Source of the DNA: a bacterium
GTDB lineage: Bacteria; Electryoneota; RPQS01; DYHQ01
Direction: 5' to 3'
Length of the DNA stretch: 64,000 nucleotides
Assembly: GCA_030622545.1 (NCBI GenBank)
Contig: JAUXGA010000001.1
Location: 1-64,000, forward strand
The notes under the pieces were generated by a model. The model saw only the letters and a list, made by a program, of their open reading frames with translations, did no database searches and was not told the DNA's origin. This document shows positions 20,194 through 46,893 of the stretch, piece by piece. A program made the position numbers and the translations under genes. How positions within the stretch are numbered: the first letter of the stretch is position 1; every line of letters begins with the position of its first letter.

Positions 20194-20222
20194 TTGACAA
20201 ATTCTTTTTCATTCGTTATATT
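20194..20222 (+). promoter_or_regulatory. Strong promoter of the giant gene
   Basis: TTGACA (20194-20199), 17-bp spacer, TATATT (20217-20222), in an AT-rich surround. This is the best sigma-70-like promoter in the window. Confidence 0.82.
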
Positions 20223-32500: not shown

Positions 32501-35500
32501 GCTATAATGCGTACCTTAGCTACAACCCAGCTGGTTTCCAATACTTCTTCATTATTGACGCTAACGATAACAACGAGGCGGATCCCAATCCGTACGACCG
32601 TCACGTCAATGATCCTCGCTACACTTGCACAGGCGCCGATACGGCTGTGGTGCAAGTTTGGGATTGGTCGCTTGATTTCGATACGCGCGTGCTGACCAAC
32701 CGCAGCTACAACTTCTGGACAGAGGTTGTCTGGCACGATACAGTCGGCTATCATGTGATCGAAAATCCGTCGGAAGGTGACAGCACTCATGTCTTCTTCG
32801 TGGATAATGAACCTGCCGAAGGCACAAGCGATATCGAGTTCGACGTGACGCGCGTCGCCGCAGGTATGCAGGCTCCGGGAGAAGGAGGGGTATGCAACCC
32901 GGCGGATATCGTTTGGTTCGTGACGGATATTCAGGCGATTGACGGCTTCTACAACCTGCCGGTGGAAGACATCTGTAAGGTCGTTTACCAGCGCAGCTAC
33001 ACAAACTACGATAATTACCTCGCAGAAGACAGCACGGGCTGGGAGAATGTCGATACTGTATACTCGAATCAGGACAGTGGTTGGACAGAAGCGTGGCCTG
33101 GCTCATGGGTAGCGGTTAATCCATTGATCGATAACCTCGATAACGACGGCGACGGTCTGGTCGACGAAACCGCTGATGTTCAAGCTGGCGACGGCGTCGG
33201 CGAGGAAAATGTGCGCATCTGGGTGCGTGCAGTGATTGTTGATCAATGCGGCAATACCTTCTACACAGAACCCGACAGCCTCTGGCTCGACGTCTCCGAA
33301 GCGCAGGCCTGCATCACGGAAATCGAAGGTGTTTCACCTGCGGATAATCAAACCATCATTATTCCGGAAGACCACAATATCGAGGTTATCGCGACGGATC
33401 ATTCGGCTCCGTTTGATCAGGCGATCCTCGGTCGCTTCCAGTATCGTACACTCCCGCCGGATACCAACGGATGGATGGATATGCAGCCTATGATGGGCAG
33501 CGGCGAAACCTCAGTGGTCCGCCATGTTCATGGTGTCTTCACCTTTATCTGGGATCTTGACAGCCTACATGCACTGCCCGGTAGTCCGGATCCGGAAAAC
33601 TGGTATCAAGGCCGAGTGGTCGCTGAGGATACCGTTAACAATAACGATTCCTGCGATAATGTCATTTGCCAGATTACCTTCCGCTTGAATGACATTACGC
33701 CGGCGGCTCGCGTTGAAATGTACATAGTTTACAGCGACACTGATACAGCAAGTACCTGCACGGTAGATTCTGTCTATTACATTAATCCAGATCCGCCGTA
33801 CTATTTGAGGGGTGTCTTCGCGCCAACCTCTATTGATACAGGTCTGGCATCGCTTACCTTCCAATATCGTACTCGCGATTGCGCTGATATGATCTACACG
33901 GTTAGTGAGTGGCGCAATATCGAAACCATCTGGGAGCCGATTGAAAACGACACGGCTAATGTAACAGATAGTGTTACCTTCCAGCCGCGTCCGGAAGATG
34001 TCGGCGATCAGGGCTTTGACCTGCGTGTCATCGTGGAAGATTACAATGGCAATGATACGTCGGATGTCTGGACGCTATGGGTTGACGAAACCCCAATAAC
34101 TCAGGCAGAGGATGATATTCCGACGGTTTACTATGAGATCCTCCATGAGGGTGTTGTGATTATCAATGAAGATGCACTCCTGACAGTCGTCTATGAGCCG
34201 GATCCGGTTTCCTGCGAAGTCAATGTCGCAGAAGCCTGGCTCGAAGTCACCGAGGTTGATACGGTGTCCCCGACAACATATGATCTGGGCTACTTCGTAT
34301 GGGATACGCTCGGTACTTGGGTCTTTGACTTTGGCGGCAATATCTGTAGCACATTTGCCGCGGCCGGTGGATCAGGTCAATACTACTTCGATATCTACAC
34401 GGTTGACTGTGCCGGAAATACTGGCGACAGGCGTGTCTTGATTGATGCTGGTGGCGATCTTGGTGTCTTCGACGTCTTGACTGTTGACTGCATCGAGCCG
34501 GTCTGTGGTGACCTCTATCGCACCGATGACTGCGAAAACCTCGTCGCTAACGGCGGCGAGACCGTGCATCTCAGTTGGGAAATCTTTGAACGGACCTTAT
34601 CATTTGACGGCGAGCACACCTTTACTGACCTCGAACTCGTATATCTCATCGCGGACTATAATGGGGGTGATGAAATTGCCTCCGATAGCTTGATGCCTGA
34701 TTCCGTTGTGGGAGATTCCGTCGCCTACTTCACGTGGAACACCCAGACGGTTACCGACGACAGCACGGCTGTTGTCCTCTGGCTCCATGCTTTTGACACC
34801 GCTGAGAATAATGAGCAGGTATGCGATACGGTATTCATCCTTCGCGAAGGTTCGCCTCCGGAGCATGCCGCGATTGACAGCATCACGTACTGGGCATGGG
34901 ATTGCGTTGCCGAAACTCTTGCGCTCTTTACCGACCGCATCTTTGACGGCACAACAGAGGTCGGCTGTGATGATAGCGTTATAGTTTATGGCTCACTACC
35001 CGAGTATCAGCAGTACATCGAATATGTCGAATTGTGGGTGCAGCGTCAAGGCGGCGATAGCACGCTGGAAGATGACCAAGATTGGAATCCCTCCTGGACT
35101 TCGAACGGTGCCGACTATCATCTCGATTGGGTTCCGGACACCAGTGGATACTACCGTGTCTGGGTGATTGCCTACGACGATGCCTGCACGCAGCAGGAAG
35201 GCACAACGATTGACGAATTCTGGGCCTATGTGGACTGCGACGATCCTTACGGCTGGATTGCTGCCGCTAACGGCGTACCGACACAAGGACCATCTGTTGT
35301 AGATACCTTCGAAGTCGAGATGTGGTCCGGTGATCATGATCCGACCTACTTCTGGGTCGAATGGGCTGACAATCTTGATCCCAACGATTCGACTCAGGTC
35401 GGCAATCAGGTAGCTCTCTGGGCGAAGCCGCATCACTGGCCGAACGATTCCGATACATACGACCAAGTTTGGACGCGAGTTGATTCGATTCCGAGCCCGT

Positions 35501-38500
35501 GTAATGCGCACTTCATCATCTGGATTGATTCAATATACCACTGCGGTGATACGCTCGACCTCGTCATCGTTGCGGAAGATCGCTGGGGCAATACGACGGA
35601 GTTTGATTTGGATGATCCGTGGTATGCTTACGAAGTCTTCAATACAGGTCGATACGACGTCGGAATCATCCATGATACCGAACCGCCGGTGACACATATC
35701 TGGGGTGTCGGCACGGAAAATGATCCGAGTACGGATGTGGTCATTAACCAGCAGACGCACGAAGTCACCATCGTCGGTGGCGATACTGTGGATGTCTATC
35801 TGCATGCCTTCAGTCAGGTCGGTGACGGTTCCCTCGAACGCGTCGTGTTCGAAATGAGCTTCGACGGCATCACTTGGGATGAGCTCGGAACCGATTACGA
35901 GGGCGAGGATCCGTCGCAATATTGCGAAGGTATGGATCCGCCGCAGCCGTGGTGGTGTGATACCGAGCATCCGATTCTCTGGTCAATGCTCTGGGATATC
36001 TCCGGAATTGACGGTGATGTCTACATCCGCACTTGGGGTGAAGACCTCTGTGCGAATATCGAAACAGACCCGGTCGTTTACACCGTTCATATTGATGCCA
36101 CGCCGCCGATGGCGAAAGTCTTCGTGTGGTACGAAGGCGTCAATGTCGATACGGTTTACTGTGAGGACTGGGATGAAGAGCAGATTCCGGACAGCGCAGA
36201 ACGCTTCAGCATCTTTACGCTGGGTGGCTGTCCCGATCCGCTGACGCCTTGGGATGTCTATGGCGCCGAATGGTATATGAAGCGCGCGACGGATTATCCG
36301 CTTGGAGATTCTTCGTGGTGTGTTATCGGTGATGATTCGACCGCACCATTCTCGATGCGTGACGTCAACTTCTGGGATGGTTCCATTGGTCCATGTCCGT
36401 ATCCGCAGCCGGGTGTCTGGTATGATATCGCTATTCTGGCGAATGACAGGCTTGGCAATATCATGACTTGGGATCGGTTCCTGAATTATGGCGAAGGTAT
36501 GACCTACGAAGAGAAGTGGGCAGACCTGATTGCCCGCGGCTTCGTCAAGCGCTTCAAGGTTGTGGATTACACCGCTCCGGTTGCCTATGACTTGGTTCTG
36601 TGGCCTGACCAGACTCCGGATTCTTCGGTCATCTTCTTGACAGCCTCTTGCAGTCTGCAAGTGACCGTGGCTGATCCGGATGTTGAAGCCGTAACCTTTG
36701 GAACTCGCGAATATGGCCAGACCGGTCCGTTTACGGAAATCGAGCGCGTGGAAGGCGACAGCTTGCTGCCGCCGTTTGCGCCGGTCGAAGGCTACTGGAA
36801 TACAGAACTTCTAAATGGTACCTATGTTGTCGGCGCGTTTGCCGAGGATGATCTGGGTAACATGGACGGTGATCCTGCCGGTGGAGTCCCGCCGCAGCAT
36901 ACGCGTACTGTAAACATTGATAACGAAAAACCGGAGGCTTTGGTTGACCATGTCGAGCAGGAAGGTGTGACCGTGACGACGCTTGAACGCGGCACGGAAG
37001 CCATCTTCTATATCGAAGCCAATGATAACTTCGGTCTCAGGAATGTCTCACTCTACTATCGCGAATCCGGTGGCAATCCGGATAACTGGACACTCATCCC
37101 TGATACCGTGACTGCCTGGCCTTATACTATCCACTGGGTGGTTCCGACGACCGCAGTGGTTGGATGGACCTATGACTTCGCGGCGATTGCGACAGACCTT
37201 GTTAATTTGACAGACGAAATGGATCATCAGGGTAACTACATCGTTGATTGGTCTGCCGAAATCACGGATACCGATGCCTACATTACTCTGTTCACGATTG
37301 GTGGTCAGGATGCGGCAACGGTTCCGCACGTGCATGGCACAGATGTCGAGCTCGTGGCTCACTTCGAACCGAACCTTGATTATGTGCGGTTCGTCTGGAT
37401 ACGCGGTGGTGATACGACAACTATCTGCACGGTCCCGGTGACCATCGGTGATACGGTTGCAACCAACGACGCTTGTCCGTGGGATGTAACCGCTCTGGTG
37501 GAAGGACCGGGTGAAGTCGGCGCGATTGGCTCGGCTGATCTTGGCGGTGAGCTTGTCACCATTGGCTACGACTACCGCGATGTGGAAATTGACCACAGCC
37601 TCGTGTTGAGTCTTGGTGATCATACTCCTGTGTCGCATGATGTCCTGGGTGGTGCTTGTGGAGCTGAGGCTGCTGCATTGAACGCCTCGGTCGGATTGGT
37701 GCTTGATTATTCCGGCTCTATGTCTGGTGCAATTGATGATCTTGAAGATGCTGCTCACCTCTTTGTTGACAACATGCAGGCAGGTGATCGCGGCGCGATC
37801 ATTAAATTCGCTTCCACGACGCAGGTCATGCAAGACTTCACAGACGACTTGGATGCTCTGCATACGGCAATCGATGCAGTACCAAGCGTTGGAAGTTCGA
37901 CCTATCTGTTCGACGCCATTTGCTCAACAGCAGTGTTAATCACTCCAGAGACAAACCGCAGGGTGATAGTAGCTATGACCGATGGCGAAAGTTCTGGTAG
38001 TGTTGATGCTGCAATTACATGTGCCAATGACGCAAATGCCACCGTTTACACGGTTGGGCTTGGCGCTGCAAATGGGGCAATTTTGCAACAGATTGCCGAC
38101 GAGACAGGTGGACAGTACTACCATGCACCCGAAGCTTCCGACCTTGCTGACATCTACGAGCAGATCGCCGGTGAGATCTTGACGGGCGGCGCGCTAATTC
38201 CGGATGACCTAATTGTTGAATTCCTAACGCCGCCGTCCGACAATATGATTGATACGGTTTGGTTCGAGTGGAAGCGGACGGCAGATCCTGATCTTGATCC
38301 GCTCTACACACCTATCGGTCGTGCCATTTGGGACGAGGCGACCGGCAAGTGGGCCTATCAGTGGGAAGCCTTTAACGAGGATTGCAATCTCATCAGCATC
38401 CGTGCCGTCACTTGGGATAGGTCAGTCCCGACTCCGAATCGCAGCTACATCATCTTTGCCGATTCCGTTCACATGGATAACTGTGATCCGATTGTCAATA

Positions 38501-41500
38501 TCACCAATATCAACGGCGATCTGACACCTGCCAACATGGAAATCCCGAAGGGTGAGGTGGTCAATATTGCTGTAACGGCATACGATGTCTTCGCCGATGG
38601 CGGTAATTCTTGGGTCAAGGGTGATTCCGGAATCGTATCAGTTTGCATCTACTACCGTGCTGAAGGCGATATAAGCTGGCTCTATCTCGGTTGCCCGACG
38701 TCACCGACTTGGGATGTTGTATGGAATACCGGTGGTCTCAGCTTCGGTGCGTATGAGCTCCAAGCTGTAGCGACGGATTGGGCAGGCAACTGCGCCACTA
38801 CAACCATAACCATTAATATTACAGACGCGCTCTATCAGCGTGCCTTCATTGTCGGTTACGATCGCGATGACGACTATGCTTGTCCGGATACGCTCTGGGC
38901 GATAACCGACGATTGTGACGAAAATACCACAGACTACGTCCGCTTCCAGTATTCGACAGATGAAGGCGAGACGTGGGTCGCGTTGGGTGAAGATCAAACG
39001 GGTGAAGACTTCTGTCTGGAATGCTTCCAGTATCACATCTGGAGCGTCCAGCTTGAATTCGACGTCATCCCAGAAGGCGCAATCTTCCGCGCTATTGCAA
39101 CGGATGAATCCGGAAATGATGATCCGGAACCTGCGGTCTTCGCCTTTGCCGATGTTACCGATTCTCCGGAACCGGTCGTCTGGGCTTATGATTGGGTTCA
39201 GGTGCCGGTGATGGAAGGCCAGGTACCGTGGGTCTTCAGTGTCCTTGAAGACCACAGTGAGGTGTGCTTCACGGATCACGAGCTGGTTTGTGTGAATCCG
39301 GTCGAGGGCGATCCGATGCACTACGCGGGATTGCTTGATCCGAACCGGACAAGTCCTTGCCGTATCTACAATACCGATGGAATGCTGACGGTCTTCTCAT
39401 CAGTTTACGATGAAGAAACCGGCCACATGATGATCAGTAGATACTTCATGGACATTCACCAGACAGACAACCTCGGTGGTTCGAACGGCTGGCTCACATC
39501 CGAGACAGGTCAGACTCAAATCTATGTGCCATCGCATGGTCTGTGGGAAGATGGTACGATTTACTTCGAGCCGTATCTTGACGCTCAAACGGTCAACCTG
39601 ATTCCGGTTGAGCAGCCCTACTACACGCTGGCAAGTGATGTCGAGAACATCTACTTTGGTGGTGACCTGGAAGGTGCGGATCTTGTTCCTTCGTCATTTA
39701 AGCTCCGCTTCTACGGAATTCCGGAAGGAGCTGCACCTGACCAGATCGTCCCGGTTTGGTGGAATGAAGTCGGTGGTGTATGGTCTGAATTAGGAATCCA
39801 ATACGCCGAAGTTGATACGGTGAACTGGACGGTTACCTTCCAGTCCCGGATTGATCAAGTAACTTACGCACCAGAAGGAGAAGAATGCTTCTTCGTAACC
39901 TTCGCGGTTATGGTTCGTGAGGTCGGCTTCACGATTGACGGACCGTACTTCGTGGATGCGTATGAAGGTTACTGGGATTATCCGGATTCCTGTTACTACA
40001 CACCTGAACGCGGCCCGACGATTGGCGATGATCCTGCTTACTGGGTGGTGCTGTGTGACGGTGATGGTGTCCCGCCAGAGGAGTGGATTGATGTCTGGCT
40101 TGACGACATCCGAATCATCCATAATGGTGTAGCTGTTGAATTTGTAGGCTACCCGGATATCTTCCTTGATGACTATGACGATGTCTCTGGCATCTATAAA
40201 GTCTACTTCAACCATGCTGAGTGGGCTTGTATCCACAGCCCGTGGCATTGTGAGATGCAGGCAGGACCGCATACCATTCGGTTCCGCGTCTATGACGGCG
40301 TCGGCCACGAGGTTGAAGCGGCAGCACCGTTCTATGTCGATGTCACCGGACCGGATGTCTTTACGTGGGGTCGCTACATCTGCCACAACACGGAGATGAT
40401 TGCGACGATAACCGATCTCGAGGCTTGTATCAATCTCGAATCTCTCGAACTTACCATTTGGAATCTGCTGGATCCGGGTGGAGAACACCTCCACTATTAC
40501 CACGATGTGATGACAATCACGGAGGTGGAAAACGGATACCAGGTTAACTTCATACTCACCTTCGATGACCTTGATCAGCTTCTCCTTCTTGAAGGCAATG
40601 ATATCAATGAGCTGGCAGTTACCTGGTATGTCGAGAACACACTCGCTCTGGAAAATGCAGAGAATACCTTCCTCTATATCGTTGACCTTGAACCACCTGT
40701 GATTGTACCGGTTTCGCCGGTTGGTGAAGCCTACGACAATGACGGCGACGGTGTTGCCAACGAGGATCCGCGTGACTGCATCAACAACGACGGTGACTAC
40801 TGGTGGTATGGCGGCGAGTGGCAGGAACGGTTCGACGAAGACTGGATTGACTACGAACCGGATACTCTGTTCTTTGGTGAGCGTCCAACGATCCAGGGCG
40901 CGATGAACGATAATCCGCAGTGCGGTTCCGGTGCATCCGGAGTCAATCTTGAAACCTTCCATCTGTTCATTGATGGTGTTGACTTCACCATTGCGGATAC
41001 CGCAAACGCGGACCTGAACTTCACAGTTCTCCAGCCCGGCAACGATGATGCGTTCTTCCTCTTTGGAGGAACGGACAACGAAATCCTCGATCAATTCTAC
41101 GAGCCGGGAGAGCACCGGATTACGGTGATTGCGGGTGACTCTGTCTGCGGCAATATTGCGGGCTATCCGTTCAGTTGGACCTACTACATCATGGTGCCCG
41201 GCCCAGCCATCTCCTTCCTCTCACCGGAAGGTTGTGGTGACTGGTTTGATCCGGAAGGTGTCAATGAATTCGGTTTCGTGGTTGACGGAACGGGCGTTCC
41301 AATCGCTATCAACGGAATTGAATACAGCGTCTTTATCTTGCCTTCGGGTGAGTTGATTAGTGGCCCGACGGTTATCAATCCGGAAACGCCAACTCATCAT
41401 GAGGAAATGGTTACCATTGCGTATCCGTTCCAGGATGATGATCTGGGTATTGCCATCGAAGTGACGGCGCGCGCCCAGATGTCGGGTGACGACTACGGCG

Positions 41501-43917
41501 TAACCGTTAGCAGTCATACTTATGCGATTGATGACCTTGGCCCAACGATTATACCGGTGATACCTGACAGCGGAGAGGTATTTAACCGCAGCCAGGCAAT
41601 CGTCATTGAAGCGTCTTATATGGATGATGGTGGTGTTCTCCTAAGCGCGAATCCTGGTGGAGACGACGCAGGTATGAACATCACAATACCTGCACGCGCA
41701 GGACGGACTGCCCTCGGCAAAACTAATGCTTCATCGAGTCGCACTGATTTGGCACCGCTTGGTATCGAGCGTCCGGGTAGTCGCGGCGCTTCGGGAGCCA
41801 TTTTGGATGGCGGCGGCGCTCATCTTGACGATGTCGGTTCGGGTGTTGACAGCGCGACTGTGAAGGTTATTCGTCCCGACGGTGTGTACATCATTCCGGA
41901 AGTCGGTCCATACTATGAATGGTATGACGATCACCTTAAGTTCACGATGCTACAGCCGCATATACCGGGTAGGTACACGATCAATGTCATAGTTTGGGAT
42001 TGCATCGGAAATTACAACTCGATAAGCTGGCCGTTCTTCGTGTCATCAGATGAGCCAGCTGTCGAATTCGTAGCCCGCTCTGGCGAGTGCGAATATGACG
42101 GTTTCTGGAATCCAGACCAACAGCTGACTGTGGAAGCGACCATCGAAGAAGTTCACGGTGTTAATATAACCCGAGATGGCATCCATCTGAATATCTACCG
42201 TATCTATAATTCGGACAGCGGAAGCGTGGAAGAGTTGCTGGTACCTTATGCCGCGTACTCCTTGAGTCCGCAACCGAATGACGGAGATGTCGCGCAGGTG
42301 TTCACACTGATGGCAACCCCGAGCTTGAATCCTGAACCTGCGGATATCGCTGTTCGCTTCGAGCTGATTGTTGCTGACATCTATGGAACAGAAGCGACAA
42401 TGAACAAGACCTACCAGATTGATCGCATGGCTCCGTGGATCGATATTCTCTCGCCGGCGGAAGTTGTTCCGGAAGGTGAGCTGGTTACGATTCATGCAGT
42501 GTTCAGTGATGATCCGCCTCCGGCGATTGCAACCGCTCCGGGTGGTGATCGCGGCAGGTTTGCCAGTCCGAGCAGTATTCTCTCAGGCACTCCGCAGCAG
42601 AATGGCAGGATTACTCGTGCGACACGTACACGGAGCACCGCTACGGGCGGCTTCGGTGACTGGTCGACGGTTATGACGGGTGGTCTGGATGACTTCGACG
42701 GAAATGCCGGTGTCGATGCGAACTGCGTGCAGTTGCTGCTGCGTCACCCGGATGGCACTATTGCAGACCTGACAAGTGCGTCGACGGTTGACGCTACCAG
42801 CATTACATGGTCTGGAAACCTTGATCGCGGTGATTATGTCATTACCGTGAAGGTTTGCGACTATGTCTGCAACGAAGGCGTTGCCATCTGGAACTTCCGC
42901 GTGGCCAACGGCGCTTGTCCGACCATTGCATTTGTCGAACCGTATTATGTATCCTCAATGCCGCATACCTTCTTGATTGACGTTGTCGATTCCACTGGAG
43001 TCGATGTGGGTAGTCTGCGACTGCTCGTCGAGAAGCTGCAGCGGATTCATACGGATTCGACGGATATCGAACACTACGTCGTTATCACTGACAATGCGTC
43101 GATTGCTTGGGATGGTCAGACAGATTCGCTGTTGGTGACCTACGTCGCTAACTTCTTCCTTGAAAACAGCATGACGGTCAAGGATGTTGGCGTCCGCTTG
43201 ACGCTGTGTGCCAGTGATCTGGATGAGAACCTGTGCTGTGTTTCCAAGAACTACACTGTTGATCAGGATAATCCGTTCATTGACATTGACGGTGTCGTTC
43301 CATCGCTTGACAATCCGCTGGTGATTGATTCCCGTCCGACCTTTATCGTCTCCTTCCATGAAGAAGGAGGCGGAACGGGTCTTGATGCCGATGCGGTTTC
43401 CATCACATTGGCAACGTTGGGCGGCGTTATCCAGGCGGGTGCCACAGAGGTGAACGTTGCACCATCCGGTGCATCAGGCAACGTTTCGTTCCAACCTGAT
43501 GAAGGTCTGGAACCCGGCAAGTATCTGCTGCGCGCCAGTGTGGCGGATATGGGCGGTAATGTGGCGATGGCAGAATGGGTCTATCGTGTCGGCAAAGAAA
43601 TCCCTGTTCTTACCGGCAAGAAATCCTATGTCTGGCCGAATCCGTTCGTGCCGGGTGAAGGTGGAGCCCACTTCGAGTTAGGTGTTACCGGTGAAGGCAC
43701 GGCTTTTGTAATGGTGAAGGTGTACGACATTGCAGGTCAGTTCGTCGCAACCGTTTACGAAGGCCAGTATGAGCCCGGTCAGGCGATTATCTGGCAAGGT
43801 GTCAATGACAAGGGTCAGGAAGTCGCTAACGGCGTCTACTTGGCGCACGTTGTCATCGAAACCGGTGGTCAGGTCTCTGACGAAATCGTCAAGGTCGCCT
43901 TTAAGAAGGTGAAGTAA
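20575..43917 (+). CDS. Giant secreted multi-domain Ig-like protein with VWA domain and T9SS/FlgD-like C-terminus
   Basis: A 7780-aa protein (roughly 0.85 MDa) in one unbroken frame. The start at 20575 is chosen because GAGGAGA stands 6 nt upstream and a signal peptide follows (VFVLSALMVCLFGGASALAQ); the ORF track start at 20413 would bury it. By eye I count about 30 module boundaries of the form (V/I)Dx(T/N/E)xPxxx(I/V), spaced mostly 150-300 aa. Each is followed by beta-strand-like, Asp/Trp/Tyr-rich sequence, as in tandem Ig-like or cadherin-like folds. Cys is frequent in the first three quarters. Calcium-type DxDxDG loops occur at three places. A VWA domain lies at ~5703-5870 with DYSGSMS and TDGES. 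The last ~105 residues are a FlgD-Ig/T9SS sorting domain (VWPNPFVPGEGG; VANGVYLAHVV). Likely role: surface adhesin or filament, by architecture only. Confidence 0.88.
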   Translation: MMKSTALFHVFVLSALMVCLFGGASALAQPDIIIDGGFIECVEDTAGTTPNGVIDEGTDSVRVTVFAAIPNGNTGPYNLCFEDSVEAGLWPVPGLGDFDASVPQISYLCNPVTLYRMETQVTANMGLDSLYDADSCLIVATLTFHPQNLIASAGDAALFSVTVKSNDDLDNGPWCRSDPLTVVLPCSINTVTGCGTILWDEYGGFRNDNIVAIDDSVWWVFAADTADMDTFYIDFSCISSDLGSDKVHSGFTGKYRVHALDLLENSLTDTFFVTYCEWDTFYGDLSTTCWDTCYVLRWIDNNPPSTCLACYDSCHIVNGNYIPNDTMGWWPNYGSPWWPYLGVGDTLRIFWSIGYADTCNYPPLSSCRGDTVALCNTLERLRNFDAAWIGVDFSGFVDSCGADPTWWPVNSIPGGTSPYMGPGDSLIAPHKIWIGGPGGYGGIEGDSLLWVDIPIDIVNWPLIQCCIDPTLETGNAPDLYFIDDAGNDYGPEDYQCEFCIDNVCPDGPLADLRQDTLCRRFSPYDSTENRWWSISPDSIRVWLDSLDAAGNPDSLENLFLVGIDVRSEPDEITGDIVAVLDWFNPLLAPQYIPFERDTWLFPEGPYDSAAFDWYGKQGTDSLDPWLDLTNICPLGFNVGLTYARFMDRAGNNCIWGWDNDSTTVLPNYTQRNRIHAVVDTCIPDVVVLSDTLTVMNIVLGSGAPVPIGPETGYPTYQWTTGDEDPILRFRPERFFDQGLHDSCLVERLFAHVLVERVVEFGCGTWPNPDDTAGFYSHEDSTDGSATWLWSPIDFYANDVNGPIIQFHWGHEFPGGGYLNDGLYRLELQILDDAGMIYTDPCYVWLNGTGPCFDTVRVAGPDTACALHFFTDDTMCVYIVTDTTAEFVEVDWSCIPNLNTDCTFVHTVSYDSTHIAGGLAEWMVCIEGILADYIDTVDTDNNHYELDSLAQKGVCDTNDCGLQTIGVYAWDSDSVMSRYYQVDCHQIPDGCQEAILGLTPCPRIVSGHPEFFFYNPDTMAADSAANLGFPWGPEPDWNAISPGNLDHAYSASLNWAQDNVQDTVFMRVLIDSLTINALGGDTIEISIRNDNETPTRERVIRRPLYHQPDTLANNSIYHGRLTRYYNPADGLLTPYFQFIYMWNGTWFISGGMDSIEMVDFNKQDTVLVTVTVIDSNDALECDSVFADLDVDNINPEFYDWTGIAAGTRDPNTGSTPSVWNLGVDNDCGFRFGEGDTFKLKVKLSESVHFDSAAYPNTDGSWRDPGTGEWKLTRNWQISAIDNMTEDLLIVAGDTIKVWLDEVIEDSVAYDSSYYTLIGRFTNIPDDYCNTNVNLLIRSAWDQAGNPGRYNNPVYTDAYEADACEDTSFAIYIVNIDPFIIGCPLVWNLTDSIPGWIAPEDLDVEVIASIIETPEVWACTLGTIPDSIQHIRGNFQQITDDPNPWLNADSVGAWYLWADTSVCDSLEFWARDYYWWLVADSSDLATIHCDGDTLDFWIRFNTFGGASDTGFFDECVQVDVNEPVWVNAWAEDTAGTMEITDTTCADPHAPIILWANFTDDMIDCPTGNGLGVVDTLIWADISGITGDTTDTKVAPDSIWPDLGVPPYGYAFWTVIPDTAFWCHAETLVTWDALALTDSIGHYDRELFFRDTLCFHSDCMPPVFDYAVAGCDTDTVTVPTPTCVNMPIYGYLSPGNPIYLLACFNDPDTDSSLGIDSLWVDLSELDMTTSGWIAAEDTCWADSFYTVCGYWGYTTSYVLNQPFDNLDTAWVWFKAMDNFGNVDSFHVAIGVIDTLPPIVDFIYTIGDDSVRAYVTPADEHVTVYADLIPGDTYMASGPKDVWADFSRFMCDSAQRAGYDTLYADLVYETSPGNWRAFWGYDSLYYVSLGYNSITPFFLHVCDSLHMPANLSPPDGPDPIGLDVGAEGLYDTLWVHVTDSACNVGTHYNIFEISGGDSTVPDVDSVWVMTNRCDTTLGFISSQPLDSLHIEVWAWMDTMFNGYEDTLRIDSLQADLAGLNPTLYGWTDWGMPGHYGGWPVYGDANDPNHGQAFWDLVMDGQGRTRLVAKWVNLTAEGLGCGDSVVVPVKGIRQTGGGGSHGYYLDVEYGQAWVDTTRPYIYDMRVYNSTVSPDDTTWVSPNFPVYVDICAVDTICWPGYGNEPGFDLAMGDPPDGPYISFCAGAENALRDLWTWDTTSFSVEYNGGDTVCLRWIGMPIYDDTCNLVDYDNLNGCVTAYIQDCLSNPAYPVTKEVTTDDRPPEYVLSAVRGDYTFETPFPGDPDSVGIDSVLVLRRGIYNLDWDSLMTVYVVVDNWPGDTLISFTQTWIDFRHPTNHPALNFMIDGPDTVANPDVVFYNTDGMHRDSIVWYVPLYGSELFDVTIPSDKYYFALQLSDTFGNSIGDTNSMGEWTTLFCDSSDEGLDSAIVFTIQNYNVPNPGMVLLADSMNKWNNEKLSPDTAENLYKIWHPMGAKSEEELEWRWYTNSTRFFIFVEDPVLQHDLIDNDADGLVDELGEGVDFYTADVRINNYPQVAHVDSMNSGGVWINYLWFEDNFSEGQYNVELFISDIYGHRDTLGLAMYSPDTLALQFFEDESCPMGVQMVFADTNMVDVPINYNGMDVTALDLSLYQLPDSLFVYKNFAWLDIELTDSTIFNSIPPVPGSGVDTDTSTTPDSTNWNNGLATSIVLYDPTMTPVPHFVQRYYLDLANFPHATLVDTTGTALESLPDGIYTIVLDPLDRVGNSCVYTWQFILDRTCPSIDSLYVTQSGFGIAEDTLYASWDYVEIKAHVNDLLDGVDSVVFDYCFDANRDGVLDAYPFWIQANILSVPNSATDSTYMWACYWSVMNLPWSSEDTLGMPPVDTLGRCINRYFVRIQAWDHFSNTCEYYIPVDIIDDIAPLAYIVYPPQGAVFNSQIDSEMVVTAYDSVGGTYDPMPGDTFTFNPLGRWFDLAKGMFQYKYYEAPGTYVSGNDDPAAGWVTIRTGLPDSLGGDTSTYRAPDDSFHVRLNIADWPSHQYNMRFWTFDVCGNNDPLNTPVVTFWVQEDTINPIASITWPDPDMWVTDLHCSTGFVPIRATVPFYFDIDSVEFWYVDSLTIPGIGQHIHIGSVTQADSVNWNWAHYFSTDLWDTRHLLSGFYWLYAIAWDSSGNFDANPHWSRVMLDNTPGEITDCWISDPDSDATNKYFEIDATREDTMFVLRATAKDSIVDMWGVTHYGDIRWVQFQVLTRFGVWEDLDTNFTDPMGYNPLYGADIYVGNANGVYNGISCDNVPDTAGIYECYVMFSDFGNSPLDSIRFRAYCADGTDRTWPDPPESDKYWGHPNWEGDRNRDCGLDRDAVLCSNSLMIYDQLPEGVYLWARNHSDFDDDLPVFGGGISPLARFGCNDPYALDTVLFVAKYDTLPGDEWLLHFVYWRSGAWDADTTVTVPGDTMYIPNDISLNPSAPALGPIGLINAWDSLYVIWTDIRQWIANDAALHGYTNVDLTFAAYVTDWTGNTSPLMDDTSKFTIRWDCQAPICEITDPDAGDPLWATNDDCDTYTALQAYMDSSLEANRELWEWGWTVGDLWETHWYWSYVGGPLNDTGMVDSDLFDAGCWPDPYGWHRDSTDQWGCCYYDRFNVEWNNTLFRTVEGYKAGTGQIWMVVTDDVGNVDTCMVEVEVDNEAPYAPITHVSYVQNDPGDPGNRVRVTHEVTWLRDSDPDTIEILYNRGTDPGGDDPEAFVIFYCDADKVLNCTGDPIDIHNVQLWELCQDTSRNHVCPGDTLPSDSVLFDTFKEAQEFDQYPPDDDANDRYEIALLLDNTYTPGTYHFSFIATDDYGNIEGDANMNDTLTIACGGRPADPDITKIDLFVRVVNVNEPQVVIRQPDYGHTCVHEQILLSAEDATDPTYFTGEIDTVFFWTQTDGGDSLLGFDTDTTGAVYTFELYEEEVPGMAGWYVANSYQWFAERDLFPDVWVRVLNPNGSIYNTFDMEYSGGRWSYNAYLSYNPAGFQYFFIIDANDNNEADPNPYDRHVNDPRYTCTGADTAVVQVWDWSLDFDTRVLTNRSYNFWTEVVWHDTVGYHVIENPSEGDSTHVFFVDNEPAEGTSDIEFDVTRVAAGMQAPGEGGVCNPADIVWFVTDIQAIDGFYNLPVEDICKVVYQRSYTNYDNYLAEDSTGWENVDTVYSNQDSGWTEAWPGSWVAVNPLIDNLDNDGDGLVDETADVQAGDGVGEENVRIWVRAVIVDQCGNTFYTEPDSLWLDVSEAQACITEIEGVSPADNQTIIIPEDHNIEVIATDHSAPFDQAILGRFQYRTLPPDTNGWMDMQPMMGSGETSVVRHVHGVFTFIWDLDSLHALPGSPDPENWYQGRVVAEDTVNNNDSCDNVICQITFRLNDITPAARVEMYIVYSDTDTASTCTVDSVYYINPDPPYYLRGVFAPTSIDTGLASLTFQYRTRDCADMIYTVSEWRNIETIWEPIENDTANVTDSVTFQPRPEDVGDQGFDLRVIVEDYNGNDTSDVWTLWVDETPITQAEDDIPTVYYEILHEGVVIINEDALLTVVYEPDPVSCEVNVAEAWLEVTEVDTVSPTTYDLGYFVWDTLGTWVFDFGGNICSTFAAAGGSGQYYFDIYTVDCAGNTGDRRVLIDAGGDLGVFDVLTVDCIEPVCGDLYRTDDCENLVANGGETVHLSWEIFERTLSFDGEHTFTDLELVYLIADYNGGDEIASDSLMPDSVVGDSVAYFTWNTQTVTDDSTAVVLWLHAFDTAENNEQVCDTVFILREGSPPEHAAIDSITYWAWDCVAETLALFTDRIFDGTTEVGCDDSVIVYGSLPEYQQYIEYVELWVQRQGGDSTLEDDQDWNPSWTSNGADYHLDWVPDTSGYYRVWVIAYDDACTQQEGTTIDEFWAYVDCDDPYGWIAAANGVPTQGPSVVDTFEVEMWSGDHDPTYFWVEWADNLDPNDSTQVGNQVALWAKPHHWPNDSDTYDQVWTRVDSIPSPCNAHFIIWIDSIYHCGDTLDLVIVAEDRWGNTTEFDLDDPWYAYEVFNTGRYDVGIIHDTEPPVTHIWGVGTENDPSTDVVINQQTHEVTIVGGDTVDVYLHAFSQVGDGSLERVVFEMSFDGITWDELGTDYEGEDPSQYCEGMDPPQPWWCDTEHPILWSMLWDISGIDGDVYIRTWGEDLCANIETDPVVYTVHIDATPPMAKVFVWYEGVNVDTVYCEDWDEEQIPDSAERFSIFTLGGCPDPLTPWDVYGAEWYMKRATDYPLGDSSWCVIGDDSTAPFSMRDVNFWDGSIGPCPYPQPGVWYDIAILANDRLGNIMTWDRFLNYGEGMTYEEKWADLIARGFVKRFKVVDYTAPVAYDLVLWPDQTPDSSVIFLTASCSLQVTVADPDVEAVTFGTREYGQTGPFTEIERVEGDSLLPPFAPVEGYWNTELLNGTYVVGAFAEDDLGNMDGDPAGGVPPQHTRTVNIDNEKPEALVDHVEQEGVTVTTLERGTEAIFYIEANDNFGLRNVSLYYRESGGNPDNWTLIPDTVTAWPYTIHWVVPTTAVVGWTYDFAAIATDLVNLTDEMDHQGNYIVDWSAEITDTDAYITLFTIGGQDAATVPHVHGTDVELVAHFEPNLDYVRFVWIRGGDTTTICTVPVTIGDTVATNDACPWDVTALVEGPGEVGAIGSADLGGELVTIGYDYRDVEIDHSLVLSLGDHTPVSHDVLGGACGAEAAALNASVGLVLDYSGSMSGAIDDLEDAAHLFVDNMQAGDRGAIIKFASTTQVMQDFTDDLDALHTAIDAVPSVGSSTYLFDAICSTAVLITPETNRRVIVAMTDGESSGSVDAAITCANDANATVYTVGLGAANGAILQQIADETGGQYYHAPEASDLADIYEQIAGEILTGGALIPDDLIVEFLTPPSDNMIDTVWFEWKRTADPDLDPLYTPIGRAIWDEATGKWAYQWEAFNEDCNLISIRAVTWDRSVPTPNRSYIIFADSVHMDNCDPIVNITNINGDLTPANMEIPKGEVVNIAVTAYDVFADGGNSWVKGDSGIVSVCIYYRAEGDISWLYLGCPTSPTWDVVWNTGGLSFGAYELQAVATDWAGNCATTTITINITDALYQRAFIVGYDRDDDYACPDTLWAITDDCDENTTDYVRFQYSTDEGETWVALGEDQTGEDFCLECFQYHIWSVQLEFDVIPEGAIFRAIATDESGNDDPEPAVFAFADVTDSPEPVVWAYDWVQVPVMEGQVPWVFSVLEDHSEVCFTDHELVCVNPVEGDPMHYAGLLDPNRTSPCRIYNTDGMLTVFSSVYDEETGHMMISRYFMDIHQTDNLGGSNGWLTSETGQTQIYVPSHGLWEDGTIYFEPYLDAQTVNLIPVEQPYYTLASDVENIYFGGDLEGADLVPSSFKLRFYGIPEGAAPDQIVPVWWNEVGGVWSELGIQYAEVDTVNWTVTFQSRIDQVTYAPEGEECFFVTFAVMVREVGFTIDGPYFVDAYEGYWDYPDSCYYTPERGPTIGDDPAYWVVLCDGDGVPPEEWIDVWLDDIRIIHNGVAVEFVGYPDIFLDDYDDVSGIYKVYFNHAEWACIHSPWHCEMQAGPHTIRFRVYDGVGHEVEAAAPFYVDVTGPDVFTWGRYICHNTEMIATITDLEACINLESLELTIWNLLDPGGEHLHYYHDVMTITEVENGYQVNFILTFDDLDQLLLLEGNDINELAVTWYVENTLALENAENTFLYIVDLEPPVIVPVSPVGEAYDNDGDGVANEDPRDCINNDGDYWWYGGEWQERFDEDWIDYEPDTLFFGERPTIQGAMNDNPQCGSGASGVNLETFHLFIDGVDFTIADTANADLNFTVLQPGNDDAFFLFGGTDNEILDQFYEPGEHRITVIAGDSVCGNIAGYPFSWTYYIMVPGPAISFLSPEGCGDWFDPEGVNEFGFVVDGTGVPIAINGIEYSVFILPSGELISGPTVINPETPTHHEEMVTIAYPFQDDDLGIAIEVTARAQMSGDDYGVTVSSHTYAIDDLGPTIIPVIPDSGEVFNRSQAIVIEASYMDDGGVLLSANPGGDDAGMNITIPARAGRTALGKTNASSSRTDLAPLGIERPGSRGASGAILDGGGAHLDDVGSGVDSATVKVIRPDGVYIIPEVGPYYEWYDDHLKFTMLQPHIPGRYTINVIVWDCIGNYNSISWPFFVSSDEPAVEFVARSGECEYDGFWNPDQQLTVEATIEEVHGVNITRDGIHLNIYRIYNSDSGSVEELLVPYAAYSLSPQPNDGDVAQVFTLMATPSLNPEPADIAVRFELIVADIYGTEATMNKTYQIDRMAPWIDILSPAEVVPEGELVTIHAVFSDDPPPAIATAPGGDRGRFASPSSILSGTPQQNGRITRATRTRSTATGGFGDWSTVMTGGLDDFDGNAGVDANCVQLLLRHPDGTIADLTSASTVDATSITWSGNLDRGDYVITVKVCDYVCNEGVAIWNFRVANGACPTIAFVEPYYVSSMPHTFLIDVVDSTGVDVGSLRLLVEKLQRIHTDSTDIEHYVVITDNASIAWDGQTDSLLVTYVANFFLENSMTVKDVGVRLTLCASDLDENLCCVSKNYTVDQDNPFIDIDGVVPSLDNPLVIDSRPTFIVSFHEEGGGTGLDADAVSITLATLGGVIQAGATEVNVAPSGASGNVSFQPDEGLEPGKYLLRASVADMGGNVAMAEWVYRVGKEIPVLTGKKSYVWPNPFVPGEGGAHFELGVTGEGTAFVMVKVYDIAGQFVATVYEGQYEPGQAIIWQGVNDKGQEVANGVYLAHVVIETGGQVSDEIVKVAFKKVK

Positions 43918-43929
43918 GAAAACAAATAC

Positions 43930-43957
43930 GGTGGGGCTGCTGCAAAGCGGCCTCACC
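43930..43957 (+). other. Intercistronic hairpin after the giant gene
   Basis: GGTGGGGC pairs with GCCTCACC (one mismatch) around TGCTGCAAAGCG. There is no T run, so it may protect the 3' end of the giant message or reduce read-through while leaving the PorV-OmpA gene in the same operon. Confidence 0.55.
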
Positions 43958-44006
43958 GACTTAAAAGATTTTAAATCTATTTCCGTTCGACAGGAGGAGG
44001 GATAAC

Positions 44007-45449
44007 ATGTCCCGATACAGGATGATCGTACTAAGCGCGGCTCTCATAGCTCTCATGCTGGCCACGACCGGTTTCGCGCAAAACCACGCAGGTCCGTGGC
44101 TCCGTATGGGTGTTGGTGCCAAAGCAATGGCAATGGGCGCTGCTCAGACGGCGGTTGCTGAAGACGCCACGGCGGCTTACTGGAATCCGGCTGCACTCGC
44201 GGGTCTTCGGAAGTTCGAAGCTTCACTCATGTATACAGCGGGGATGAAGGCCGAGCGAAACCACAATTATGTGAGTGCTGCTTTGTGTTTGGACCGCATC
44301 GGATCGTTCAGCCTCTCCTGGTTGAACGGCGGAATTACGGGCATTGAACAGCGAACCGGCCCGACCGAAACACCCGATGCGATGTTCGACGTGGCGAATA
44401 ACGCTTTCCAACTTTCCTACGCGCGTTTACTCGGACAAATCGCTTTCGGGATTTCCGCAAGATACTTGCAGGAGGATCTGGCGGACAACGACGGTTATGG
44501 CATCGATGCAGGACTTCACATTCCTCTCTATGATGAACTCTTCTTTGGAGCCATGGTCCGCGATCTCGATGGGAAGTTCGGCCCGGATCGTCTGCCGTAT
44601 GAATGGCGTTTCGGCATGGGAATTCTCCCTTGGAAGAGTGTCACTTTGACCGGTGATTTCGTCAAGGTGAAAGAAGAAGAGGCAACGGTGTGCACCGGTG
44701 GTGCATTTGATTTCGATATCAGTGACCATAGCAGCTTCTATCTGGCGGCTGGAATGAACGACATGTTGCGCGACAGTCGTGGATTCACCGCCGGTCTGGG
44801 ATTCAACTTCAACAACTGGGCGATTCAATACGCCTATGTGACCGAGCCAGCAGAATTCCTGGAGCAGAATCATCGCCTTTCGGTGAACTTCTTCTTCCAA
44901 GACAGGTGCACTCCGTTCCGGAGCATCTTTGGCTCGCTCAAGCGTGAAGCGAAACCCGCGGCAGCTCACAAGCCTCATCCTCCCGCAGGACCCAAAGAAT
45001 TCATTCACCGCTATATCTTCGAGGGAAGTCCTTCCATGAAGCTGTCCCTCGAAATCCTGCGGCCGACCCAGAAAGACAGTATTCGAAAGGTATGGGAAGA
45101 GGTCGGCGGAACGATTTCCTTCCCAGGAGTCAACTTTGCGACAGCTTCAGCGGAGATTACCGACGAATTCAGTCGTGTCCTTGATGGAGTTGCACAACTG
45201 ATTAACGAGCATCCTGAGATTCAGCTCCTTGAAATTCAGGGTCATACCGACAATACCGGTACGGACGCGATTAATGTCCCGTTGTCGGCGGCGCGGTCGG
45301 AATCCGTGCGAAATTACCTGATTTCTCGCGGCGTAGATGCCAGTCGCCTGCAGGCGAAGGGCTTTGCGAGCACGAAGCCGGTTGCGTCGAATGCGACAAC
45401 GGAGGGACGCTATCAGAATCGCCGGGTTGATCTCGTACGCATACGGTAA
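44007..45449 (+). CDS. PorV-like outer-membrane protein fused to an OmpA peptidoglycan-binding domain
   Basis: A 480-aa outer-membrane protein. A signal peptide (to GFAQN) leads into a PorV/PorQ (UPF0164-type) beta barrel at ~27-300 with the family start WLRMGVGAKAMAMGAAQTAV and AAYWNPAALAGL. A linker follows, then an OmpA C-terminal domain at ~365-480 (NFATASAEI; LEIQGHTDNTGTDAINVPLS; GFASTKPVASNATTEGRYQN; RRVDLVRIR). In T9SS organisms PorV shuttles sorting-domain cargo from the translocon to the attachment complex, and OmpA domains bind peptidoglycan. Here both are one chain, placed 89 nt after a giant T9SS-type cargo gene, with the strong ribosome site AGGAGGAGG. A dedicated secretion or anchoring partner for the giant protein is inferred. 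Plain structural OmpA use is the alternative. Confidence 0.85.
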   Translation: MSRYRMIVLSAALIALMLATTGFAQNHAGPWLRMGVGAKAMAMGAAQTAVAEDATAAYWNPAALAGLRKFEASLMYTAGMKAERNHNYVSAALCLDRIGSFSLSWLNGGITGIEQRTGPTETPDAMFDVANNAFQLSYARLLGQIAFGISARYLQEDLADNDGYGIDAGLHIPLYDELFFGAMVRDLDGKFGPDRLPYEWRFGMGILPWKSVTLTGDFVKVKEEEATVCTGGAFDFDISDHSSFYLAAGMNDMLRDSRGFTAGLGFNFNNWAIQYAYVTEPAEFLEQNHRLSVNFFFQDRCTPFRSIFGSLKREAKPAAAHKPHPPAGPKEFIHRYIFEGSPSMKLSLEILRPTQKDSIRKVWEEVGGTISFPGVNFATASAEITDEFSRVLDGVAQLINEHPEIQLLEIQGHTDNTGTDAINVPLSAARSESVRNYLISRGVDASRLQAKGFASTKPVASNATTEGRYQNRRVDLVRIR

Positions 45450-45474
45450 ATGAAGCTTCTTGTTTTCTCTTTGG

Positions 45475-45510
45475 AAAAGAGCACCGACCCGTCGTGTGCT
45501 CTTTTCTTTT
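45475..45510 (+). terminator. Rho-independent terminator after the PorV-OmpA gene
   Basis: AAAAGAGCAC pairs exactly with GTGCTCTTTT around an 11-nt loop, followed by CTTTT. It ends the giant-gene/porV-like unit and lies inside the ORF-track version of the next gene, which argues against that early start. Confidence 0.9.
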
Positions 45511-45564: not shown

Positions 45565-46893
45565 ATGTTGAAACGTAGCTTGATTTTTGGAATTGCGATT
45601 CTGATTCTCGTTACAGCATCTTTCGCTGAAACAGAATCACATCTCTTCAGTGTCTTGACAGGGAAAGCGTCTCAGGCCTATTTCGGTTCCGCTGCTCTAG
45701 GAGCTGCGGATTGGAGAGGGGTGGGAGTGCCATGTGTCGCCGCTGCGGCTTCAGGGGGCATCGGGCTGATTCATCGCGGAGCTGTTTATCTTTACGACAC
45801 GCTGGATGCCGCTACGCCTGTCGTGGTTTTAAAGGGCCCAGAGGATGGAGACCTATTCGGATACCGGCTTGCCGGACTGACGGATATGAACGGCGACGAA
45901 ATCCCGGATTTGGCTGTAGCTGCTCCCTATATGGGAACCCAGTCAAAAAGGCCCGGCAAGGTTTATCTGTACGCTGGAGGCGGTGGATTCGGAGAACCCA
46001 AGCCACTCGAGTTCAGTGTCAATGAGAAAGGGAATGGATTCGGAAGAGCCGTATGCGTAGAAGATTTGAATGGAGACGGTCTGGCGGATTTAATCGTAGG
46101 AGCTCCGTATTCGAATCATGGAGGAATCCTGGCGGGTCGAGTCTATATCTGGTGGGGACGTGAAAACTTAAAGAGTGGTGTGAAACCGGATGTCACTTTG
46201 AACCACGGGACAACAAATGATATGTATGGAGCGGCTTTAGCTGTTGGCGATTTAAACGGCGACGGCCATGCTGATTTAGCTGTCGGCTCGCCCCAACATA
46301 ATATCGGGCAAGACCTTCCGGGATCCGTTTTCATCTTTTTCGGAGGGGACAACGCGAAATGGAGCAAACCTTCCCTTATTCTAAATGGAGAAACGACAAC
46401 CTTCCAAGACCATTTCGGAGCCACGCTGGTTATTCCGGGAGATGTCAATGGAGATGGTTCGGATGATCTGTTGGTTGGCGCTCCGAATGTGAAGACTTTG
46501 GGAAGCGATCAGGGCAGAGTCTATCTCTTTTCTGGAGGGCAAAGTCTGGATAGCGAACCGGATCTACAACTGGATGGGGAAGAAGAGATTAACCTTTTCG
46601 GCTCCGGACTCTTTGGCATCGGAGATCTAAATCAGGACGGCAAAGCTGATTTTGCCGTTCAAGCGGAAAGCGCAGGGGGAGGTCGTGGAGTTGTCTATTT
46701 TTATTATGGAGGATGGGAAAGACCTTTCTATGAGATGACCGGAGAATACGTGGGGGATCGACTGGGGAACTGTGTTGTGAATTTGGGAGATTACAATAAG
46801 GATGGAACGCAGGACGTAGCCGTTTGTGCCGCATGGAATGATACCAATGGAGATGATGCCGGGAGAGTCTATATTCTATCTTTTCAGAAGTAA
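45565..46893 (+). CDS. Exported FG-GAP/integrin-alpha-like beta-propeller protein
   Basis: A 442-aa exported protein. The start at 45565 has TAGGAGAT in front and opens the signal peptide (LIFGIAILILVTASFAET); the ORF track starts 35 codons earlier within a terminator. Six to seven FG-GAP repeats of ~60 aa follow, each with a calcium loop such as DLNGDGLADLIVGAPYS, DLNGDGHADLAVGSP and DVNGDGSDDLLVGAP, then GRVYLF. This predicts a seven-bladed propeller like the head of integrin alpha chains, used for binding proteins or glycans. It has no T9SS tail or lipobox. A large hairpin terminator follows the stop. Its position next to the giant protein suggests a shared surface function, but this is only context. 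Confidence 0.88.
   Translation: MLKRSLIFGIAILILVTASFAETESHLFSVLTGKASQAYFGSAALGAADWRGVGVPCVAAAASGGIGLIHRGAVYLYDTLDAATPVVVLKGPEDGDLFGYRLAGLTDMNGDEIPDLAVAAPYMGTQSKRPGKVYLYAGGGGFGEPKPLEFSVNEKGNGFGRAVCVEDLNGDGLADLIVGAPYSNHGGILAGRVYIWWGRENLKSGVKPDVTLNHGTTNDMYGAALAVGDLNGDGHADLAVGSPQHNIGQDLPGSVFIFFGGDNAKWSKPSLILNGETTTFQDHFGATLVIPGDVNGDGSDDLLVGAPNVKTLGSDQGRVYLFSGGQSLDSEPDLQLDGEEEINLFGSGLFGIGDLNQDGKADFAVQAESAGGGRGVVYFYYGGWERPFYEMTGEYVGDRLGNCVVNLGDYNKDGTQDVAVCAAWNDTNGDDAGRVYILSFQK

Follow-up and report, generated by a model that had tools for sequence, protein, structure and literature searches.

A PorV-like outer-membrane barrel fused to an OmpA domain, a candidate wall-tethered carrier for a giant T9SS-type cargo in an order of Electryoneota

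A stretch of 64,000 nucleotides (the window) from a bacterium of the Electryoneota (GTDB order DYHQ01; positions 1 to 64,000 of contig JAUXGA010000001.1, assembly GCA_030622545.1) encodes a giant protein ending in a type IX secretion system (T9SS)-type C-terminal domain (CTD) and, directly behind it, a PorV-like barrel with an OmpA domain on the same chain (Table 1). The reading favoured here, to which a probability of roughly 0.6 is given, is that this fusion serves the T9SS-exported giant as a dedicated carrier and then remains its wall-tethered anchor, more than acting as a mobile shuttle. A set made of a giant, a carrier and an anchor recurs in two phyla, which points to one machine exposing a giant protein and tying it to the wall.

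Table 1. Position of the features in the window and of the fused Cloacimonadota counterparts in their own loci
Feature	Position	Strand	Basis
Sigma-70-like promoter TTGACA-17-TATATT before the giant gene	20194..20222	+	11/12 consensus positions; consensus match only
Giant cargo with signal peptide, VWA and T9SS CTD; very long acidic array	20575..43917	+	ORF 20413-43917
VWA (von Willebrand factor A) domain in the giant	37693..38163	+	PF00092 E 2.3e-15, residues 1899-2055 of the part from 31999
PorU/PorZ-like sorting domain of T9SS type at the C-terminus of the giant	43618..43914	+	AF2, Foldseek, profile, NF033707
GC hairpin of 13 bp between the two genes, no T run	43929..43958	+	z -6.06
Ribosome-binding region GACAGGAGGAGGGAT of the fusion gene, nearly invariant in the order	43990..44006	+	Order comparison
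PorV-like barrel + OmpA domain fusion, 480 aa	44007..45449	+	ORF open throughout; family, fold and orthologue evidence
Signal peptide of the fusion	44007..44078	+	MSRYRMIVLSAALIALMLATTGFA/Q, read from sequence
PorV/PorQ-family outer-membrane barrel of the fusion, 14 predicted strands	44088..44906	+	NF033709, strand count, Foldseek
Segment joining barrel and OmpA domain	44991..45116	+	FIHRYIFEG..S.KLSLE.LRP..KDSI..VW
OmpA-type peptidoglycan-binding domain of the fusion	45117..45446	+	PF00691 4.7e-20; D415, N423, R430 invariant
Terminator-like hairpin + T-rich tail past the fusion gene	45474..45506	+	Folding
Downstream neighbour: exported protein with an FG-GAP beta-propeller, perhaps a third partner	45565..46893	+	PF01839 1.2e-45
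Cloacimonadota barrel + three OmpA domains	L205 5464-7767; L206 5019-7310, L207 5064-7358 on reverse complement		

The preliminary description of this DNA had proposed a PorV-type barrel carrying its own OmpA domain, and the family searches bear this out. The barrel part (residues 28-295) scores 104.3 bits against the NCBIfam PorV/PorQ family NF033709, above the cut-off of 90, and 102.8 bits in the search of its own genome. The Pfam PorV model PF19572 reaches 22.8 bits, below its cut-off of 27, and is suggestive only. Neither the PorV equivalog NF033710 (cut-off 250 bits) nor the PorP/SprF family TIGR03519 (cut-off 90.55) is among the best 25 families, the lowest of which scores 47.7 bits. The AlphaFold2 model computed with ten orthologues shows 14 strands followed by an OmpA fold (mean pLDDT 57); at this low model confidence, the top Foldseek matches are the PorV chains 8gl6_F (5e-10) and 6h3i_F (1e-9) of the SprA translocon, ahead of FadL.

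The OmpA part (residues 377-472) gives 72.2 bits with PF00691, for a cut-off of 27.2. Its residues D415, N423 and R430, identical in the 10 orthologues, have the same spacing as Asp576, Asn584 and Arg591, through whose side chains PorE binds the stem peptide of peptidoglycan (PMC7192894). Judging from these contact residues, the domain would grip peptidoglycan. The likeness to PorE is limited to the OmpA part, as the combination of TPR, beta-propeller and OmpA domains by which PorE is recognised is not found in the fusion. The segment that joins barrel and OmpA domain matches no known domain, and its mean column identity is 0.86 vs 0.61 in the stretch just ahead. OmpA proteins that are 40-49% identical to the OmpA domain of the fusion were also considered; these are of repeat-bearing or small-barrel types and not PorV fusions.

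The ORF of the giant, counted from its first ATG, encodes 7,834 residues, the real start being likely position 20575, where a clean signal peptide (MMKSTALFHVFVLSALMVCLFGGASALA) begins. The protein is strongly acidic (net charge -938). Most of its length matches no Pfam family, and its end carries Ig-like and FlgD-like domains according to Pfam. The last 99 residues are modelled as a confident seven-strand beta-sandwich (AF2 pLDDT 85), for which Foldseek ranks PorU (6za2) first and PorZ (5m11) fourth, after one C5a peptidase and with FlgD behind. In the same way, a profile search returns PorU (1.8e-6), PorZ (6.9e-5) and then FlgD. The sorting domain scores 55.9 bits with the C-terminal part of NF033707; the giant reaches 19.7 bits with the general type A CTD model TIGR04183, just under the cut-off of 23, while the type B model TIGR04131 does not match the last 805 residues at E 1. 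These best matches suggest a T9SS CTD of the PorU/PorZ-like, i.e., uncleaved, type; the T9SS CTD fold is also shared by FlgD-like domains, and this counts against a firm call. In P. gingivalis, the CTDs of PorU and PorZ are left uncleaved (PMC11285876) and both proteins are kept at the surface by PorV and PorQ (PMC5562754).

The fusion is present as a single copy in 12 of the 13 genomes of the order, and the thirteenth holds an N-terminal fusion stub, 72% identical, at a contig end. Elsewhere in the phylum, it was found in none of 26 genomes. The two-gene unit that had been put forward is conserved, as the giant lies directly upstream of the fusion in all ten genomes of the order with upstream DNA. 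The distance of 89 nt already reported between the two ORFs is exact for the window; it ranges from 89 to 109 nt in nine genomes and reaches 606 nt in the genome G003. The neighbours are mostly kept within the order, with a spermidine synthase and a member of the arginase family upstream and the FG-GAP protein and a UDP-sugar dehydrogenase downstream. The FG-GAP gene follows the fusion in the order members read, except in G003, where it has been lost and where giant and fusion are nevertheless still paired. Since orthologues occupy the same place in every member of the order with readable flanks, this arrangement is not due to chance. It had been suggested to look for the co-occurrence of such fusions with giant CTD proteins: wherever the DNA upstream of a fusion can be read, it encodes a CTD cargo, and fusions that are common without a cargo neighbour, which would have spoken against the proposal, were not encountered.

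The complete giants of the order have 7,289 to 7,834 residues, except that of G003 (2,310 residues), and homologues of the C-terminal 1,800 residues were found in the same order only. The idea that the cargo is very large thus describes the usual case; it does not extend to G003, nor to the proteins of ~2,550-2,580 residues that accompany two of the Cloacimonadota fusions described below. The title of the public record DYHQ01000025.1 names an alphaproteobacterium, Candidatus Puniceispirillum, and looks wrong: by its content the record fits the order, with a fusion 83% identical.

A GC-rich hairpin of ~11-15 bp, devoid of a T run, is found directly past the stop codon of the giant in nine of nine genomes of the order. 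Its sequence differs from genome to genome and the stems are out of register in the MAFFT alignment, so that the hairpins were folded one by one. This hairpin may be a partial terminator or an mRNA stabiliser; it may lower read-through from the giant into the fusion and might determine how much giant is made relative to carrier. A hairpin 3' of the fusion gene also occurs in the 11 other genomes checked, its T-rich tail being seen in the window. The fusion gene had been placed before the first terminator. This remains correct for the hairpin with a T-rich tail and has to be qualified for the T-less hairpin that separates the two genes. The FG-GAP protein encoded further downstream could replace the propeller of PorE.

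The closest barrels outside the order belong to Cloacimonadota. In the tree, the fusion barrels of the order and those of Cloacimonadota are sisters (support 99/88; 94/82 with more rows). The fusion barrels do not group with the PorV paralogues of their own genome, and an origin from one of these was rejected. In Cloacimonadota, the gene of a CTD giant is followed by a PorV-like gene and this one by a PorE-like gene (loci L096-L100 and L210-L222). The PorE-like proteins have a PD40 propeller and an OmpA domain, with a weak TPR in two of three. Among the four complete giants of this phylum, those of 7,763, 6,581 and 7,519 residues align to the giants of the order in mostly colinear pieces; that of 5,650 residues aligns mainly near the C-terminus. 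The unit is therefore not confined to the locus or order in which it was first seen, an unfused version of it existing in Cloacimonadota.

Furthermore, three Cloacimonadota species carry, directly behind a CTD gene, a PorV-like barrel fused to three OmpA domains. These proteins surfaced only in a phylum-wide search, no other PorV-OmpA fusion having been found among the 128 PorV-like ORFs from outside the order in the first loci. In the tree, they are nested inside the unfused Cloacimonadota barrels (100/99). The simplest reading of these sequences is that the anchor was fused to the carrier twice, apparently independently; alternatively, an ancestral carrier-anchor fusion could have been split repeatedly. 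The existence of an unfused version, together with this second, apparently independent fusion, argues by the gene-fusion or “Rosetta stone” principle for a joint action of carrier and anchor. A second very long ORF (L225-L226, on G150:C165), of at least 5,438 residues and with a T9SS-like C-terminus, lies about 15 kb ahead of one triple-fusion locus.

The genome from which the window comes encodes SprA (800.6 bits, with its neighbours), PorU (653 bits, cut-off 420) and, directly behind PorU, a canonical PorV candidate (C11:25765-26907, 211.6 bits). It therefore has the T9SS core, whose absence would have spoken against the proposal. The GldL and GldM models (TIGR03513, TIGR03517) find no match in this genome, and no control genome scored over the cut-off either; the genome possibly has a T9SS with an unrecognised motor. 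A more radical possibility, and an improbable one, is a motor-less T9SS branch in which a PorV-OmpA barrel, fixed to peptidoglycan and not shuttling, pulls the giant out and holds it at the export site. If this were true, wall tethering rather than the PorLM motor would give export its directionality.

The same genome holds 15 PorV-family matches, several of them directly behind CTD proteins. In other phyla, 43 of the 70 PorV-like genes sampled (L096-L169) immediately follow a gene whose product has a T9SS-like CTD, and PorV-type carriers may thus often be paired with one cargo. The pairing seen here had been called private. This agrees with the conserved giant-fusion unit, but the presence of a PorV-family gene behind a CTD gene is not in itself special to this locus. 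Among the sampled loci, the record L101, titled Deltaproteobacteria, has a PorV gene nearly identical to a Calditrichaceae one and is likely misnamed or a mixed MAG.

These data can be assembled into the following mechanism. Giant and fusion, which both have a signal peptide, would be exported by Sec. The fusion would then form a PorV-type barrel of 14 strands in the outer membrane, from which its OmpA domain would reach into the periplasm; the fold is predicted, the topology inferred. By homology with PorV, which handles type A CTDs, the barrel could dock on the lateral gate of SprA and take the PorU/PorZ-type CTD of the giant. In the SprA translocon, extracellular loops of PorV enter the pore and hold the CTD (PMC10994853). 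The CTD of the giant would stay uncut and the giant would be held non-covalently on the barrel, like PorU on PorV and PorZ on PorQ. If the OmpA domain grips peptidoglycan, as its contact residues suggest, a single partner would give a giant of up to 7,800 residues its mechanical link to the wall. One chain would in this way do the job that a PorV-like barrel and a separate PorE-like protein would share in Cloacimonadota, a job resembling that proposed for an SprF-like shuttle and PorE with static type B adhesins in Flavobacterium.

In Flavobacterium, some operons associate a substrate gene with a gene for an SprF-like shuttle and a porE-like gene (PMC12618676, PMC9143113). Fjoh_3952, the sole such substrate tested, appears statically anchored (PMC12618676), whereas mobile adhesins lack a porE-like gene (PMC12618676, PMC9143113). 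The preliminary description had left open a wall-anchored shuttle or docking protein. The wall anchor is the part that fits better; the shuttle is the weaker half. The static anchor is preferred because the CTD is of a type left uncleaved in P. gingivalis and because a static role is also proposed for the corresponding Flavobacterium operons. Alternatively, the barrel could be a private but mobile shuttle that picks up the giant at SprA and hands it over at another site, e.g., to PorU, which would cleave and attach it; the OmpA domain would then be only a transient brake. PorV does shuttle in P. gingivalis (PMC5562754), and the PorU of this genome could process the cargo. However, a peptidoglycan-binding domain would oppose diffusion, the CTD of the giant is nearest to the uncleaved PorU/PorZ type and the PorE-associated Fjoh_3952 appears static (PMC12618676). 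Such a shuttle is thus considered unlikely.

The fusion could also be a general envelope protein in the manner of OmpA or OprF, mainly attaching the outer membrane to the wall; its place behind the giant would then simply reflect a conserved operon. OmpA domains are common and further OmpA proteins exist in these genomes, but the barrel belongs to the PorV family rather than to the OmpA type, and the gene is single-copy and stands beside a cargo wherever the flanks are readable. Furthermore, the set of giant, barrel and OmpA domain recurs in a second phylum with the same barrel lineage, which makes a general envelope role improbable. Least probable of all is a part of the secretion machine that fixes the SprA translocon or the attachment complex to the wall and serves all cargo, by analogy with PorE-PorP linking the PorK/N ring: small amounts of PorE-PorP do associate with PorK and PorN (PMC9143113), and no full PorE-like protein was found elsewhere in this genome, the search returning OmpA-domain matches only, but the fusion is confined to one order and its gene lies beside the giant, away from SprA, PorU and the other T9SS genes.

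The unit can be compared with Fjoh_3952-3951-3950 of F. johnsoniae and PG1035-PorP-PorE of P. gingivalis (PMC12618676, PMC9143113). As in the wall-tethered carrier favoured here, a cargo is accompanied by its own FadL-family 14-strand barrel and by an OmpA-domain protein, and static wall anchorage has been proposed. However, the present barrel is of the PorV type and not PorP/SprF, the CTD is PorU/PorZ-like and not of type B, barrel and OmpA domain form a single protein and the host lies outside Bacteroidota. The present unit is thus probably a PorV-type analogue of the adhesin/shuttle/PorE operons of Flavobacterium, with carrier and anchor in one chain.

Other systems share part of these traits. 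For example, the giant repetitive adhesin SprB of F. johnsoniae (669 kDa) also has a dedicated barrel, SprF, that retains it at the surface (PMC9143113). By contrast with the present giant, SprB moves, carries a type B CTD and lacks a PorE-like partner gene, and SprF has no OmpA domain. The PorU-PorV and PorZ-PorQ pairs of P. gingivalis likewise consist of a surface protein with an uncleaved CTD on a PorV-family barrel (PMC5562754, PMC11285876), and the PorU and PorV genes are also adjacent in the genome studied here. However, PorU and PorZ are machine components and not giants, and their barrels have no wall anchor. The Cloacimonadota units have homologous giants, sister barrels and the same gene order; they differ by an OmpA domain located on a separate TPR/PD40-propeller protein or by three fused OmpA domains (L205-L207).

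The wall-anchor model of the PorP-PorE type was drawn for type B cargo of Bacteroidota (PMC9143113, PMC12618676). The cited T9SS literature does not describe a tie to the wall for T9SS surface proteins with a PorV-type carrier. The sampling reported above now extends the pairing of carrier and cargo genes to PorV-type barrels. As carrier and wall anchor are here united in one protein, the static-anchor model becomes testable in a single polypeptide.
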